From Cristatella mucedo (Eukaryota > Bryozoa > Phylactolaemata > Cristatellidae), in contig WPIO01000037.1 in assembly GCA_009760855.2 (NCBI GenBank), positions 852,501-916,500 on the forward strand: 64,000 nucleotides of DNA, read 5' to 3'. The notes beneath the pieces were generated by a model. That model was given only the letters and a program-made list of their open reading frames with translations, was not told the origin of the DNA and searched no databases. This document shows positions 8,389-56,765 of the stretch, in pieces (position 1 is the first letter of the stretch; the number at the start of each line of letters is the position of its first letter). The position numbers and the translations under genes are program-made.

Positions 8389-8626
8389 ACAGCCGCTCGC
8401 CTCGTGAAGGCTGCTACGTCACCACGCCTCTAGCGACCTGCCTCTAGCCGTCGCGTAGAGTCGTCGACAGGTCTTGGCCTGCTGTCCGTCTCCCTCCTGC
8501 GATCAGATATCGGCTACTGGATGCTGCTGCCTGAGCGCCTCTGTCAAGATTGCCTGCATCGACAGGCCTTCTCAAGCTATCTATTTATTGATTCCCCTGA
8601 AAAGGTCCGAATGCGACCACCTAACC

Positions 8627-8809
8627 TATTGGTTCTCAACCTTCCTAATGCCACGACCCTTTAATACAGTTCCTCCTGTTGTGGTGACCCCAACCATAAA
8701 ATGATTATGTGCAAAATGTGGAAATGCGTGTTTTCGGATGGTAGGCGACCCCTGTGAAAGGGTCAATCGACCCTAAAAGGGGTCGCGACCCACCGGTTGA
8801 GAACCGCTG
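8627..8809 (+). mobile_element. SPIN-like hAT MITE ('Space Invader' type)
   Basis: A 183-bp non-autonomous DNA transposon. The left end reads GGTTCTCAACCTTCCTAATG, then GACCCTTTAATACAGTTCCT and TTGTGGTGACCCCAACCATA. The right end contains GGCGACCCCTGTGAAAGGGT and GGGGTCGCGACCCAC, then GGTTGAGAACCGCTG. From memory, this order and wording match the SPIN hAT family, known for horizontal transfer among tetrapods and some invertebrates. The right terminus CCGCTG is intact. The left terminus is TATT where CAGC is expected. The flanks ACCTAACC and ATATAACC match at 6 of 8 positions, consistent with an 8-bp hAT target duplication. No transposase is present; the centre is shorter than I recall for SPIN MITEs. 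Confidence 0.85.
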
Positions 8810-8892
8810 ATATAACCCATAGTGAGAAGAAAAGCAGACATTTAACCGGGTGACTGGCCGATGGCCTAGCTGAGAAAGCAGAGGAACTTTAC

Positions 8893-18736: not shown

Positions 18737-20480
18737 TCACTTCGCAAACATTAAACACGAGTTTTGCACCAACTGCAATCGCCTGATCGCACATGCCGTT
18801 ACGCCAGTAAGCAGCGAGTCGCAGAAGTCGAGACGAGATGTAACGAATGCATGGACAAACTCAGACTTGGTATCCTTATCTAAGCAGGCCCAAATTTTAG
18901 CAATATTATGTAGCTGAAAGTAGGCTGACTTTACTGTGGAGCTGATGTGGTCGTCTAACGAGAGGTCACTTTGGAACATGACACCTAGATTTCGAGCTGA
19001 TTCAACAGGAGATATGCTAGCAGAGCCAATTTTGGGCGTCAGCATTTCCAATTCCTGGATCACACTGGGTTTGCCCATAACTAGTGAGTTAGTTTTATCA
19101 TCGTTTAGTTTTAGAAAATTTGCTACCATCCGTGTGCGGATGTCATCAATGCATGCAGCAAGTGAGTTGAGAGAATTTGAGGTGCTCGAAGGCTGGGAGG
19201 GATCAAAGCAAAGGCAAAACTGAGTGTCATCCGCATAGAAGTGAAAGCCGAGATTGTGTTTGGCAATCACATCAGCAAGAGGGAGAGTATAAACCGTGAA
19301 AAGAGCCGGACCTAGCACGGAGCCCTGAGGTACCCCATATTTCACAGGTACCTCGGATGATCTTTGTCCATTCACGTCAATACTCTGGAGTCTCCCACTG
19401 AGATAGGACCTGAACCATTGCAGAGCAGTGCCAGTGATGCCCAGGCAAGATGAGAGGCACTCTAGAAGAACTTTGTGATCGTTAGTATCAAAAGCTGCCA
19501 AAAGATCGAGCAAAACAAGCAGAGACACTCTACCCATGTCTGCATTCCTAAGTAGGTCGTTGTACATCCTAAGCAAGGCTGACTCTGTGGAGTGATTAGC
19601 TCTAAAGCCAGACTGGAACTTACTAGCAAGGTGTGAGGTTTCGATATATGAGTTCAGCTGGTCTGCCACGACCCGTTCCAGTGTCTTTGATAGGAATGGT
19701 AGAAGGGAAACTGGGCGGTAGTTGCTCAAGTTCTCTTGGTCTTGTGTCGCTTTCTTGAGAAGTGGCCTGACTACAGCTTTTTTGAAAGGTGCTGGGACAT
19801 GACCTGAGGCTAATGACATACTAATGATGTTAGTTATGCAGGGCAGCAGCAGATCAATGCAACGTAGGAGCAGGACAGTGGGAATAGGGCCCAGTGGACT
19901 TGTTGTCTTCTTTGATTGGAATCCGAACTTCGGCACTAGATCACTGGTGACCTGCTTAAATGTAGACATTGAGGTGCAGCCAGGAATCGGGGAACGGCAT
20001 TCTAGTGGGGATGCTGTCATCACAGGGTTGGACTCCCTGATCTTGTCTATCTTCTGCACAAAGAATCGAGAGAAGCGATCGGCTAAATCATCACAAGGAT
20101 CATCAGGTAAGGAGCTAATCTGGGAGCGGTTGAGGAGATGGTTGATCGTCGACATCAGCATTTTTGGATTGTGCATGCGTGATTAAGCAATGTTTTTATA
20201 GAAGTTAGATTCGGTCTTTGCTAGGATCGATTGGTACGACCTACAGTAATCTTCATATGCCTGTCGATGGACAGTCAGTCCAGATCTTTTGTATGCTTTT
20301 CAAGCTTTCGCTTAGTAGACCTGGCTAGTTTCATGTCTGTGGTAAACCATAGGCCGTCTGGGCGAGGGCGCACAGTGTGCATTGTCAGAGGTGCAAACTC
20401 GTTGAACGTGTCAGCTAGTGTCGTGTTGTAGCGATCTACCAATGATGACAGATCGGAAGGAGGACTGAGCAGCAGAGGTG
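18737..20480 (-). pseudogene. LINE A reverse transcriptase, longest copy
   Basis: The longest coding remnant in the window: a 479-codon frame (20176-18737) on the minus strand, with LINE homology from about 18758. In order it shows the pre-RT linker (DDLADRFSRFFVQKIDKIRE), RT fingers (KKAVVRPLLKKA, NYRPVSLLPFLSKTLERVVA), GFRANHSTESALLRMYNDLL, motif A as LLDLLAAFDTNDH (the usual S is L), motif B VPQGSVLGP, motif C FHFYADDTQ and [11 protein letters not shown]. The catalytic aspartates remain. A GAA-to-TAA change just before 20176 and a one-base deletion near 20300, relative to the copy at 46838, separate it from the upstream linker frame (20547-20275). Endonuclease and 3' UTR are absent: both ends are truncated. 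Confidence 0.92.
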
Positions 20481-28029: not shown

Positions 28030-29555
28030 GTCGTGGCGGACCAGCTGAACTCATATATCGAAACATCAAAAGCTGCTAGTAAGTTCCAGTCTGACTTTAG
28101 ATCTAATCACTCTACAGAATCAGCCTTGCTTAGGATGTACAACGACCTACTTAGGAATGCAGACATGGGTAGAGTGTCTCTGCTTGTTTTGCTCGATCTT
28201 CGGCAGCTTTTGATACTAACGATCACAAAGTTCTTCTAGAGCGCCCCTCATCTCGCCTGGGCATCACTGGCACTGCTCTGCAATGGTTCAGGTCCTATCT
28301 CAGTGGGAGACTCCGGAGTATTGACGTGAATGGACAAAGATCATCTGAGGTACCTCTGAAATTTGGGGTACCTCAGGGCTCCGTGCTAGGTCCGGCTCTT
28401 TTCACGGTTTATACTCCCCCTTTTTCCAATGTGATTGCCAAGCACAATCTAGGCTTTCACTTCTATGCGGATGACACTCAGTTGTGCCTTTGCTTTGATC
28501 CCTCCCAGCCTTCGAGCACCTCGAATTCTCTCAATTCTGCATGTATTTATGACATCTGCACATGGATGGCAGCAAATTTTTTTAAACTAAAAGATGATAT
28601 ATAAATAACTTACTAGTTATGGGCAAACCCAGTGTGATTCAGAGATTGGAAATGCCGACGCTCAAAATTGGCTCTGTCAGCATATCTCCTGTTGAATCAG
28701 CTCGAAATCTATGTGTCATGCTCCAAAGTGACCTCTCGTTAGACGACCACATCAGCTCCACAATCAAGTCCTGCCTACTTTCAGCTACATAAAATTGCTA
28801 AAACTTGGGCTTGTTACATAAGGATACCACGTCTAAGTTGGTCCATGCATTTGTGACATCCCGTCTCGACTTCTGCAACTCACTGCTTGCTGGCCTACCG
28901 GCATGAGCAACCAGGTGATTACTGCTGGTGCAAAACTCCACAGCTAGGCTTGACTGTCGTGAGCGTCATCACAGTTGCCGCATCACACCACTTCTCGCCG
29001 ACCTGCACTGGCTGCCAGTCAAGCCAAGGATCGACTTCAAGGTTTTGTCGCTCACTTTTAGGTCACTTCATTCTTTGGCTCCAGCCTATCTTTCAGTTCT
29101 ACTCCTCCACCAGGCCAAGCATCGTACCACCCGCTTTTCGGAATCCAACAGTTTACCAATACCTCGTACAAATCTCAAATCCTTTGGAGACCGTGCATTA
29201 GTTTGTATGCTCCCAAAGCCTGGAACTCGCTCCCGACTTGCGTCACAGCATCCCCTGACTTGACCACATTTAAAAAAAAATAAAACCCAACCTATTTAGG
29301 ACAGCATTTAGTGGAGCCCTGTGATTCGTCCTTCATGGGCTTATGCAGGCAGACACTGTGCATGCTGCCTTTAACCACACTTGCATGCTGACCCTGTGCA
29401 TGTCACCCCTAAACATGTTATTCATGTTGTTTATCAAGCATGATATTAATCACCATTCAATCGCGTTTCTCTTTGCAGCAAATGTAGAGCACCTAGAAAG
29501 GGATTGAGTTCTCTGAGGGCGCTTTATCAAGTACATTATTAATAATATTGTTATG
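28030..29555 (+). mobile_element. LINE A, RT to 3' end
   Basis: A plus-strand copy starting at VADQLNSYIETS. Motif A is lost to a frameshift (LLDL then RQLLILTITK). Motif B (VPQGSVLGPALF) and motif C (FHFYADDTQLCLCF) sit in a 92-codon frame at 28326-28604. The C-terminus (LLADLHWLPVKPRIDFKVLS) and 3' UTR end GGGCGCTTTATCAAGTACAT near 29540. It stands head to head with the minus fragment at 27590, and both contain the same C-terminal part, so they are separate insertions or an inverted duplication rather than one twin-primed copy. Confidence 0.9.
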
Positions 29556-30450: not shown

Positions 30451-30489
30451 CGGAGGTCGCTAGCAGATGTGAGCCACGAAGCGCGGTGA

Positions 30490-31072
30490 AGAGCAGTGAG
30501 CGAGCGGCCGTATATCGCTGCTGATACAGAGTGTGAAAGAACAGGGAGCGAGCGGCCATATGTCGCTGCTGATACAGAGTTTGAAAGAACAGCGAGCGAG
30601 CGGCCGTATGTCGCTGCTGATACAGAGTTTGAAAGAACAGCGAGCGAGCGGCCGTATGTCGCTGCTGATACAGAGTGTGAAAGAACAGCGAGCGAGCGGC
30701 CGTATGTCGCTGCTGATACAGAGTTTGAAAGAATAGCGAGCGAGCGGCCGTATGTCGCTGCTGATACAGAGTTTGAAAGAATAGCGAGCGAGCGAGCGGC
30801 CGTATGTCGCTGCTGATACAGAGTTTGAAAGAACAGCGAGCGAGCGGCCGTATGTCGCTGCTGATACAGAGTGTGAAAAAACAGCGAGCGAGCGGCCGTA
30901 TGTCGCTGCTGATACAGAGTTTGAAAGAATAGCGAGCGAGCGGCCGTATGTCGCTGCTGATACAGAGTGTGAAAGAACAGCGAGCGAGCGGCCGTATGTC
31001 GCTGCTGATACAGAGTGTGACAGAACAGCGAGCGAGCGGCCGTATGCTGCTGATACAGAGTGTGAAAGAATG
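30490..31072. repeat. 48-bp minisatellite, about 12 copies
   Basis: Each unit contains AGCGAGCGAGCGGCCGTATG, TCGCTGCTGATACAGAG and T(T/G)TGAAAGAAC. Because 48 is a multiple of three and the unit lacks stops, both strands stay open: plus reads SERPYVAADTEFERTA, minus reads LYQQRHTAARSLFFHT (221 codons, 31091-30426). One unit near 30785 carries four extra bases (an additional GCGA) that shift the frame, yet the minus frame stays open because a second frame is also stop-free. Unit-to-unit identity is high. No start, promoter or flanking coding context supports a real protein. Confidence 0.93.
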
Positions 31073-47060: not shown

Positions 47061-48406
47061 TCAACAGGAGAAATGCTGGCAGCCAATTTTGAGTCTCAGC
47101 CTTTCCAATCTCTGAATCACACTGGGTTTGCCCATAACTAGTGAGTTAGTTTTATCATCGTTTAGTTTTAGAAAATTTGCTACCATCCGTGTGCGGATGT
47201 CATCAATGCATGCAGCTAGTGAGTTGAGAGAATTTGAGGTGCTCGAAGGCTGGGAGGGATCAAAGCAAAGGCACAACTGAGTGTCATCCGCATAGAAGTG
47301 AAAGCCTAGATTGTGCTTGGCAATCACATCAGCTAGAGGGAGAATATAAACCGTGAAAATAATCGGACCTAGCACGGAGCCCTGAGGTACTCCATATTTC
47401 AGAGGTACTTCAGATGATCTTTGTCCATTCACGTCAATACTCTGGAGTCTCCCACTGAGATAGGACCTGAACCATTGCAGAGCAGTGCCAGTGATGCCCA
47501 GGCGAGATAAGAGGCGCTCTAGAAGAACTTTGAAAGATCAAGCAAAACAAGCAGAGACACTCTACCCGTGTCTGCATTCCTAAGTAGCTCGTTGTATACC
47601 CTAAACAATGCTGACTCTGTAGAGTGATTAGCTCTAAAGCCAGACTGGAACTTACTAGCAAGGTGTGCGGTTTCGATATATGAGTTCAGCTGGTCTGCCA
47701 CGACCCGTTCCAGTGTCTTTGATAGGAATGGTAGAAAGGAGACTGGGCGGTAGTTGCTCAAGTTCTCTTGGTCAAGTGTAGCTTTCTTGAGAAGTGGCCT
47801 GACTACAGCTTTTTTGAAAGGTGCTGGGACATGACCTGAGGCTAATGACATATTGATGATGTTAGTTATGCATGGCAGCAGCAGATCAATGCAACGTAGG
47901 AGCAGGACAGTGGGAATAGGGTCCAGAGGGCTTGCTGTCTTCTTTGATTGAGATACGAACTTTAGGACGAGATCACTAGTGACCTGCTTAAATGCAGACA
48001 TTGAGGTGCAGCCAGGAACCGAGGAACAGCATTCTAGTGGGGAGGTTGTCATCGCAGGGATGGATTCCCTGATCTTGTCAATCTTCTGCACAAAGAATCG
48101 AGAGGAGCGATCGGCTAGATCATCACAAGGATCATCAGGTAAGGAGCTAATCTGGGAACGGTTGATGAGATGGTTTATTGTCGACATCAGCATTTTTGGA
48201 TTGTGCATCTGTGATTCAACAATGTTTCTATAGAAGCTAGACTTGGCCTTTGCTAGGATCGATTGGTACGACCTACAGTAGTCTTCAAATGCCTGTCGAT
48301 GGACAGTTAGTCCGGATCTTTTGTATGCTTTTTCAAGCTTTCGCTTAGTAGACCTGGCTAGTTTAATGTCTGTGGAAAACCATAGGCCGTCTGGGCGGGG
48401 GCGCAC
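47061..48406 (-). pseudogene. LINE A reverse transcriptase, frameshifted
   Basis: Three frames together cover the RT. 48406-47519 (295 codons): linker LARSTKRKLEKAYKRSG, then KKAVVRPLLKKATLDQENL, NYRPVSFLPFLSKTLERVVA, FRANHSTESALFRVYNELLR and LLVLLDLSKFF, where motif A is broken off by a deletion. 47661-47434 continues out of frame through ISPGHHWHCSAMVQVLSQWE. 47432-47061 (123 codons): motif B VPQGSVLGPIIF, motif C FHFYADDTQLCLCF and [19 protein letters not shown]. The loss of the AAFDT segment near 47530 removes the first catalytic aspartate, so it cannot be active. Confidence 0.9.
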
Positions 48407-48646
48407 AGTGCGCTTTGTCAGAGGTGCAAACTTGTCGAGCGTGTCTTGAGGTTTCGCGATTCACAGGTTATTTTAGAGGAGGATGTGGGCACTCACTGTA
48501 GATTAAATGAGATCTGCATGTGGTCAGATCAGCAGGATTTGGTAATAATTGGTTATGACAAAGTGCAGTTGTATGAGAAAATCTGGTCGAGTGTTTGACC
48601 CTTGATGTGGGTAGGGCCATGCACATGAGCCACAAGAGACAATCAG

Positions 48647-49253
48647 TCAGTCAATGCACAAAATATTCGGTGCTGAAAGCGTCAAATAATTTATCAAAGT
48701 GAACATTGAAATCACCCATAACCAGGAAGGATCGATTTCTTGCACACAGAATCGAAATGAGATCAAAGAAATCTGAGATAAAGGAGGATTGGTACCTGGT
48801 GGGCTACGATAGACTACTGTCACTATCGGTAGCTTGTTTTCGGGTGAGACCAAGACAATTGATTCAAAAGACTGCTTTGAGAGTACTGCAAATGGCTTGA
48901 AGTTGAATTTCGAGCACACGATAATAGCAACTCCACCTCCAGTTTTGATCGATCTAGGAGCGTGAAAGAACGAGAAACTAGATGGGGTGGCATCTTTAAT
49001 TGTCGGGCAGTTTATCGATTTCAGCTTAAGTTTCAGTTGGGGCGAGCAGGTCGATACCATTTCTAGAAATAAGGTCGCTTATTACTAGAGGTTTATTGCA
49101 CATTGAGCGAGGATTCCAAAGGCAAGCGTTAAGTCCGATGGAGTTACAACAGGCCTGATGACCACTAAGTTGGAGAGATTTACAATAACGCATGCTGGGG
49201 AGCGTGCAGAGTGGTTCGAGACAGTGCGCTAGGAATACCAAACGAGCGGGCAC
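48647..49253 (-). pseudogene. LINE A APE-type endonuclease, frameshifted
   Basis: The N-terminal block LNACLWNPRSMCNKPLVISD with DLLAPTET (normally TETW, containing the catalytic Glu) is at 49253-49026. The next frame (49060-48647) carries SIKTGGGVAIIVCSKFNF, FESIVLVSPENK and VTVVYRSPPG. The GDFNVHFD block (Asp/Asn active site) survives at about 48717-48694 but in another frame. This is the apurinic-like endonuclease that nicks target DNA in L2/CR1-type LINEs. It is dead through indels. Confidence 0.88.
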
Positions 49254-49600: not shown

Positions 49601-49704
49601 GTACCCAAATTTGAAGCACCAGAACAGGCTTTCGGCCTCTTTAGACGTTTGTAAAAAAATTACAGCCTCTCTAAAAGTATTGTCATCTGTCTGGAAAAGA
49701 TTAG

Positions 49705-49870
49705 CATATTTAACAGCCTCGTTTATATAGCGGTTTAAGAGCCTTAACAGCTATCGCTACCGCTTGCAGTTGACAATAAACTATCACACCCGGCAGGACT
49801 CGAACCCACGACCTCGGTCGTGAAAATCGAGCACCTTACCTCCTGGGCAAATGCGAACCCAAATCGTGCC
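49705..49870 (-). mobile_element. SINE 1, copy 4
   Basis: TTTAACAGCCTCGTTTATAT, CTATCGCTACCGCTTGCAG and the B-box complement GGACTCGAACCCACGACCTC. The tRNA head ends near CTTACCTCCTGGGCAAAT. Confidence 0.85.
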
Positions 49871-56599: not shown

Positions 56600-56765
56600 C
56601 TTTTAGGGCCGTGATAGGCGAGGAGGTAAGGTGCTCGCTCCTCACGATCGTGATCGCGGGTTCGAGTCCTGCCGTGGGCGATCTTTTATTTCCAACTGCA
56701 AGTGGTGGTGATAGCCGTTAAGGCTCTTCTACTTCGACATAAATGAGGCTGCTAAATCAGCTACT
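56600..56765 (+). mobile_element. SINE 1, copy 6, plus orientation
   Basis: The tRNA-like head GGGCCGTGATAGGCGAGGAG contains an A-box (TAGGCGAGGAGG); the B-box is GGTTCGAGTCC. The body has CCAACTGCAAGTGGTGGTGA and TAGCCGTTAAGGCTCTTCTA, ending AATGAGGCTGCTAAAT. It is the only plus-strand copy of SINE 1 here and shows the full order clearly. Confidence 0.9.

Follow-up and report, generated by a model that had tools for sequence, protein, structure and literature searches.

A SPIN-type hAT MITE in the genome of a freshwater bryozoan, a candidate for horizontal transfer

SPIN (SPACE INVADERS) elements are a standard example of transposons that have passed horizontally between animal phyla, and they also occur in a snail and a planarian. 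The rodent element URR1 presumably belongs to the same family. In published accounts, SPIN hosts are given as galago, murine rodents, opossum, tenrec and vespertilionid bats (PMC5857283), squamates (PMC11008031) and, in a cross-phylum occurrence, Rhodnius prolixus (PMC11614815). Two other described systems come close. The Buster1 and Buster2 MITEs, which are Buster-group hAT elements, are reported to have spread horizontally among insects, a planarian and bats, and a subterminal motif, TGGGTCGCG, is given for Buster1 (PMC4298943). The element hAT-6_XT, described as having an 8-bp target-site duplication (TSD) and a 15-bp terminal inverted repeat, has been passed on horizontally more than once, with turtles, fishes and a frog as hosts (PMC11008031).

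The element described here lies in a stretch of 64,000 nucleotides (the window), which forms part of contig C310. All four blocks named in an earlier sequence-only reading of this DNA are present, the element is real, and its borders at 8627-8809 are exact (see table). A perfect 11-bp inverted repeat (8631-8641 and 8795-8805) sits inside 15-bp ends that agree at 12 of 15 positions, and the consensus ends, CAGTGGTTCTCAACC and CAGCGGTTCTCAACC, are terminal inverted repeats of the approximately 15 bp typical of hAT elements. The window holds no second copy. Compared with an uncurated SPIN consensus (tetrapods, Rhodnius and URR1), the host element is alike in its 15-bp ends, both subterminal blocks and MITE form; it differs in its host phylum, Bryozoa, in its 187-bp form, which contains a distinct internal segment, and in that no transposase was found. 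Its occurrence in a bryozoan parallels the cross-phylum case of Rhodnius (PMC11614815). It shares membership of the Buster group with Buster1 and Buster2, for which the TGGGTCGCG motif of Buster1 provided the only letters compared (PMC4298943). The likeness to hAT-6_XT, compared by description, lies in the lengths of the TSD and inverted repeats, whereas hAT-6_XT has a transposase and vertebrate hosts (PMC11008031).

Table. Features of the SPIN-type element and of one uninterrupted insertion-site counterpart, in window coordinates
Feature	Position	Strand	Basis or remark
Non-autonomous hAT MITE, SPIN-type, 183 bp	8627..8809	+	7.1% (K2P 0.075) from 187-bp family consensus
Left terminal inverted repeat TATTGGTTCTCAACC; family consensus CAGTGGTTCTCAACC	8627..8641	+	Inverted-repeat match and alignment
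Right terminal inverted repeat, reverse complement CAGCGGTTCTCAACC	8795..8809	-	Inverted-repeat match and alignment
Left target-site duplicate ACCTAACC, central TA	8619..8626	.	Fits family pattern nnnTAnnn
Right target-site duplicate ATATAACC, central TA	8810..8817	.	6/8 match to left duplicate
Left subterminal block CTTCCTAATGC..GACCCTTTAATACAGTTCCTC..GTGACCCC	8642..8706	+	Conserved in 39 fetched copies
Short internal segment, GTGTGCAAAATGTGGAAATGC type	8707..8728	+	In host consensus; absent from uncurated rodent version
Right subterminal block, repeated GACCC/GGGTC	8729..8794	+	Carries TGGGTCGCG on minus strand, 8784-8792
Uninterrupted counterpart of L005/L044 site, part of L2-like LINE	47368..47517	.	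150 bp, 86%, no gaps

The assembly searched comprises 572 Mb in 688 contigs (G000). A search with the element yielded the window copy and 39 others at 85-91% identity, 40 places having been scored out of 2,198 first-look candidates. All 39 further copies, which are spread over many contigs, several of them longer than 5 Mb, were fetched and aligned with the window copy to give the 187-bp consensus. Their K2P distance to this consensus averaged 0.059 (range 0.033-0.080, against 0.075 for the window copy), values that are biased low because the 39 copies were selected by their likeness to a single copy. Across the 40 rows of the alignment, differences were more frequent at CpG (107 of 880 cells, 12.2%) than elsewhere (4.8%). 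A 22-base core, allowing at most two mismatches, was found at 1,001 places in the assembly (479 and 522 by strand), these being core matches rather than a count of full-length copies; the reversed control gave 0. Twenty 10-kb stretches (200 kb), sampled at round coordinates along six long contigs that were all already known to carry the element, contained two copies, L057 at 93% and L053 at 90% (not full length) to the consensus; the resulting density is about 10 copies per Mb, from two copies only. In the 348 kb read (the window, L001-L008 and L048-L077), each one-end match was adjoined by its partner end, and only MITE-sized copies were seen. The sequence-only reading had named a lack of other copies as grounds for giving up its proposal; with 39 further copies and 1,001 core places against a control of 0, the family is plainly multi-copy. 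Its suggestion that a MITE still recognizable amid decayed LINEs had arrived late did not hold up: the window copy has diverged from the consensus to the extent given in the table, its TSD is decayed, and some LINEs are equally young, with LINE repeat pairs in the window up to 95-97% identical and one LINE retaining a 481-aa open frame. The transfer can be called late when set against the age of the animal phyla, but in no other sense.

The flanks of the copies have the character of hAT target sites. The 8-mers on either side of the window copy, ACCTAACC and ATATAACC, match at six of eight positions and have TA in the centre on both sides; among window 8-mer pairs at the same distance, 359 of 63,801 (0.56%) match at six or more. 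Over the 40 copies, the paired flanks agree at all eight positions in 9, at seven in 13, at six in 6 (the window's included) and at five or fewer in 12, so that 22 of the 40 pairs show the 8-bp TSD of hAT elements at 7-8 of 8 positions. The fourth position is T in 69 of 80 flank 8-mers, and the fifth is A, also in 69 of 80. The SPIN-like family thereby fits the pattern nnnTAnnn of Buster-group hAT elements.

In an empty-site test, the flanks of each copy were joined, eight bases were removed, and the product was compared with the window and the sample. For five of the 39 distinct copies (L044, which is the same as L005, and L016, L018, L020 and L025) the joined flanks span uninterrupted repeats. 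Four of these five matches lie in the window, those of L044/L005 and L020 within the L2-like LINE of 18740-20182. The clearest case is the L005/L044 copy at C99:3627186-3627369, which has a perfect CTCTAGAG duplication; besides the counterpart listed in the table, its site occurs uninterrupted in the window at 19311-19458 and 28241-28390. Over 592 bp, the L005 flanks match window positions 19092-19686, and they also run through 47149-47718 and other copies. Because the insertions interrupt repeats whose uninterrupted form is present in host DNA, the element integrated there by transposition, and contamination is excluded.

The identity of the host was approached through its mitochondrial contig, C688. 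The nad5 protein is 74% identical to that of Pectinatella magnifica (Bryozoa, Phylactolaemata), 67% to one further sequence and, among the best 120 matches, at most 53% to other named proteins. In a tree of the best 120 matches and the host, these three sequences form a clade with support of 1.0, inside which the host-Pectinatella pairing has support of 0.257. For COX1, the named best matches (77-82%) come from several spiralian phyla, and one sequence reaches 95%; the best named value, 82%, is reached by gastropods, octopods and a nemertean alike, the COX1 tree is unresolved, and no named bryozoan COX1 occurs among the best 120 matches. Judged by nad5, and not by COX1, the host belongs to the Phylactolaemata, the freshwater bryozoans. 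A lamprey, which the GC content and the L2-like LINE (best named protein matches in teleosts, at about 45%) had suggested as host, was ruled out by the mitochondrial genes. The concern that the DNA flanking the element might be vertebrate contamination is answered twice, by a bryozoan nad5 and by insertions that interrupt host repeats. The split between Cristatella and Pectinatella is placed near 247 Ma (PMC9653232). On C688 itself, a contig of 21 kb (L068, L072-L074), genes were named by eye: one strand carries nad2 and cox2, the opposite strand cox3-atp6-cox1-nad3 and nad1-nad6-cob-nad4L-nad4-nad5. Fragments of COX1 were also seen off this contig, at C166:4375626, C83:3121 and 2826, C549:2641741 and C299:634220; these are probably mitochondrial DNA inserted in the nucleus.

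The proposed affinity to SPIN was examined through an uncurated and imperfect version of the rodent URR1/SPIN consensus, fixed before further copies had been seen. It equals the host consensus ends at 155 of 157 positions (79/81 at the 5' end and 76/76 at the 3' end), agreement falling further inward to 77 of the last 84. Against the window copy, the end blocks of this version show 11 substitutions and two indels; at 12 of these 13 differences the host consensus has the same reading as the uncurated version. A second uncurated version, which counts for less since it was made after the consensus had been seen, gives 79/81 and 84/84 and likewise differs from the host consensus at two 5' positions. 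Rodent DNA provided a further comparison: a mouse Fem1b genotyping primer (PMC12319709) matches the consensus at 20 of 23 positions, the best of 2,000 shuffles reaching 16, and a mouse Il1b primer (PMC10570371) matches at 17 of 20, the best of 2,000 shuffles reaching 15. These are the fitting matches to two of 13 element words looked for in papers, and neither primer passage names the repeat; on these two primers, both above the shuffle maxima, the end sequences agree with rodent DNA. Matches to a mouse Vps18 primer and to antibody primers from guinea pig were dropped, as the words matched are not part of the element, and the 15-base end gave no match as a word in open-licence papers. The TGGGTCGCG-type subterminal motif is present in both the window copy and the 187-bp consensus. 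Exact SPIN-end words were absent from the viral and prokaryote contigs searched, and the element found no blastn partner among phages or plasmids, so that no outside copy for reference came from these collections; Rfam gave nothing at the gathering threshold, its 27 low-threshold rows all falling below the gathering score and lying largely on microsatellites. The matching ends and blocks seen in the sequence-only reading are thus borne out at the level of a SPIN-type hAT MITE. SPIN membership proper is a lead, drawn from an uncurated consensus and from two primers published without mention of SPIN, and from these we infer that the element would also fall with SPIN against a curated reference.

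A profile search with PF05699 found 138 places (150 of 766 candidates scored), and a search with the SPIN 3' end gave, as the best 40 of 1,989 candidates, matches that are 96-99% identical to the query, none of them 100%. By eye, no hAT domain among the PF05699 places lies within 10 kb of these best 40 ends. Neither a SPIN transposase nor an autonomous SPIN copy was found by these partial searches (PF05699 places, 3' ends and 348 kb). By our count, one and the same score recurs at 55 of the 138 PF05699 places, many of which have open frames of approximately 640 aa. The high-scoring hAT family was rejected as a SPIN partner on the one copy read (L077, C62:104187-104423), which is without SPIN ends; this L077-type family, unrelated to SPIN on that copy, is apparently young.

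We consider it very probable that the element is a SPIN-family, Buster-group hAT MITE in a freshwater bryozoan genome, and that it entered horizontally, spread by trans-mobilization and then decayed. SPIN DNA would have entered the phylactolaemate lineage horizontally, long after the phyla separated, and a SPIN-type (Buster-group) transposase would have been supplied in trans by full-length copies that have since disappeared or escaped the searches. This transposase would have recognized the MITEs by their 15-bp ends and their subterminal GACCC/GGGTC repeats, bound there and excised them; they would then have inserted at 8-bp sites centred on TA, and the resulting 1,000 or more copies would have decayed by point mutation. 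We infer the identity of the transposase, as we do the route, direction and date of the transfer. Horizontal transfer is our best reading of the cross-phylum identity, which itself depends on the element being SPIN, and it does not come from a tree.

The element might instead be a different Buster-group hAT, endogenous to the bryozoan, with SPIN-like ends that are convergent or anciently shared. Its internal segment is unlike the uncurated rodent version, Buster transposases may read similar subterminal repeats, and it carries TGGGTCGCG, which is reported for Buster1, another family (PMC4298943). We nevertheless regard such an origin as quite improbable: the agreement at 155/157 end positions is with an uncurated sequence fixed before further copies were seen, it covers motif-free blocks (CTTCCTAATGC, TTTAATACAGTTCCTCATGTTGTGG) in which convergence on binding sites would not be expected to produce it, and the two mouse primers agree with the consensus. 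Vertebrate contamination of the assembly, for example through rodent material or human handling, might be thought of in view of SPIN/URR1 copies being common in rodents. Its probability is negligible given 1,001 core matches, 39 copies on many contigs (several >5 Mb) and a 187-bp form that has a distinct internal segment, and we read the insertions inside host LINEs, with the empty site elsewhere in host DNA, as refuting it.

For vertical inheritance from a bilaterian ancestor under sequence constraint we found no point in favour, and we hold it to be extremely improbable. The 39 copies are non-coding and lie at a K2P distance of 0.033-0.080 from the consensus; bryozoans originated near 603 Ma by one estimate (PMC9653232) and the known SPIN hosts are patchy (PMC5857283, PMC11614815). 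Non-coding sequence as alike as that of the mammal and bryozoan elements could not have been retained vertically over about 600 million years without constraint, and the host copies decay in the ordinary way. The remaining alternative concerns direction: other animals may have received the MITE from the bryozoan lineage, or via a freshwater intermediary common to both, instead of the bryozoan receiving it from vertebrates. Direction is not readable from the data, and other hosts include freshwater animals (a snail, a planarian and a frog). We think this course of events unlikely, however, given that partial searches of the genome found no autonomous copy and that the Rhodnius case is read as a passage from vertebrate to invertebrate (PMC11614815).

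Under the preferred reading, that of horizontal entry into the bryozoan, the proposal of the sequence-only reading stands: this is a multi-copy SPIN-type MITE, integrated in a non-vertebrate genome, and as such a candidate for horizontal transfer to a new lineage of hosts. As bryozoans are sessile and filter-feeding, and neither feed on blood nor prey on vertebrates, SPIN in such a host argues for routes beyond blood parasitism. Freshwater bryozoans might be part of a SPIN exchange network, a phylactolaemate having taken up or passed on SPIN within the span of the tetrapod, triatomine and freshwater-snail invasions; we regard this as rather doubtful. If true, life in the same fresh waters, or a parasite that vertebrates have in common with bryozoans (such as myxozoans, which alternate between bryozoans and fish), may be a path for DNA between sessile invertebrates and vertebrates. 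The parts of the open-licence literature searched held no record of SPIN in Bryozoa; PMC7618685, which contains 'Cristatella' and 'spin', was rejected as such a report since in the text matched the latter word comes from 'spined' or 'spines'. Bryozoa appears to be new as a SPIN host phylum, which would widen the host list by one phylum. About 1,000 dispersed copies, together with several chromosome-level bryozoan assemblies that include a genome of Cristatella mucedo, plausibly the host species (PMC13326412), make the timing and number of entries directly testable.

The window contains other repeats. Recent copies of an L2-like LINE family lie at 18740-20182 (-) and 47061-49078 (-), together with fragments, with pairs 95% identical; the closest match to its protein is at 72%, and the best-ranked named ones are from teleost fish, at approximately 45%. 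A repeat starting with a tRNA-Arg-like sequence is present at 56602-56763 (+) and 49702-49863 (-), the two copies being 77% alike, and is probably a tRNA-derived SINE. A tandem array at 30489-31070 consists of 12 copies of a 48-bp unit and is open in several reading frames.
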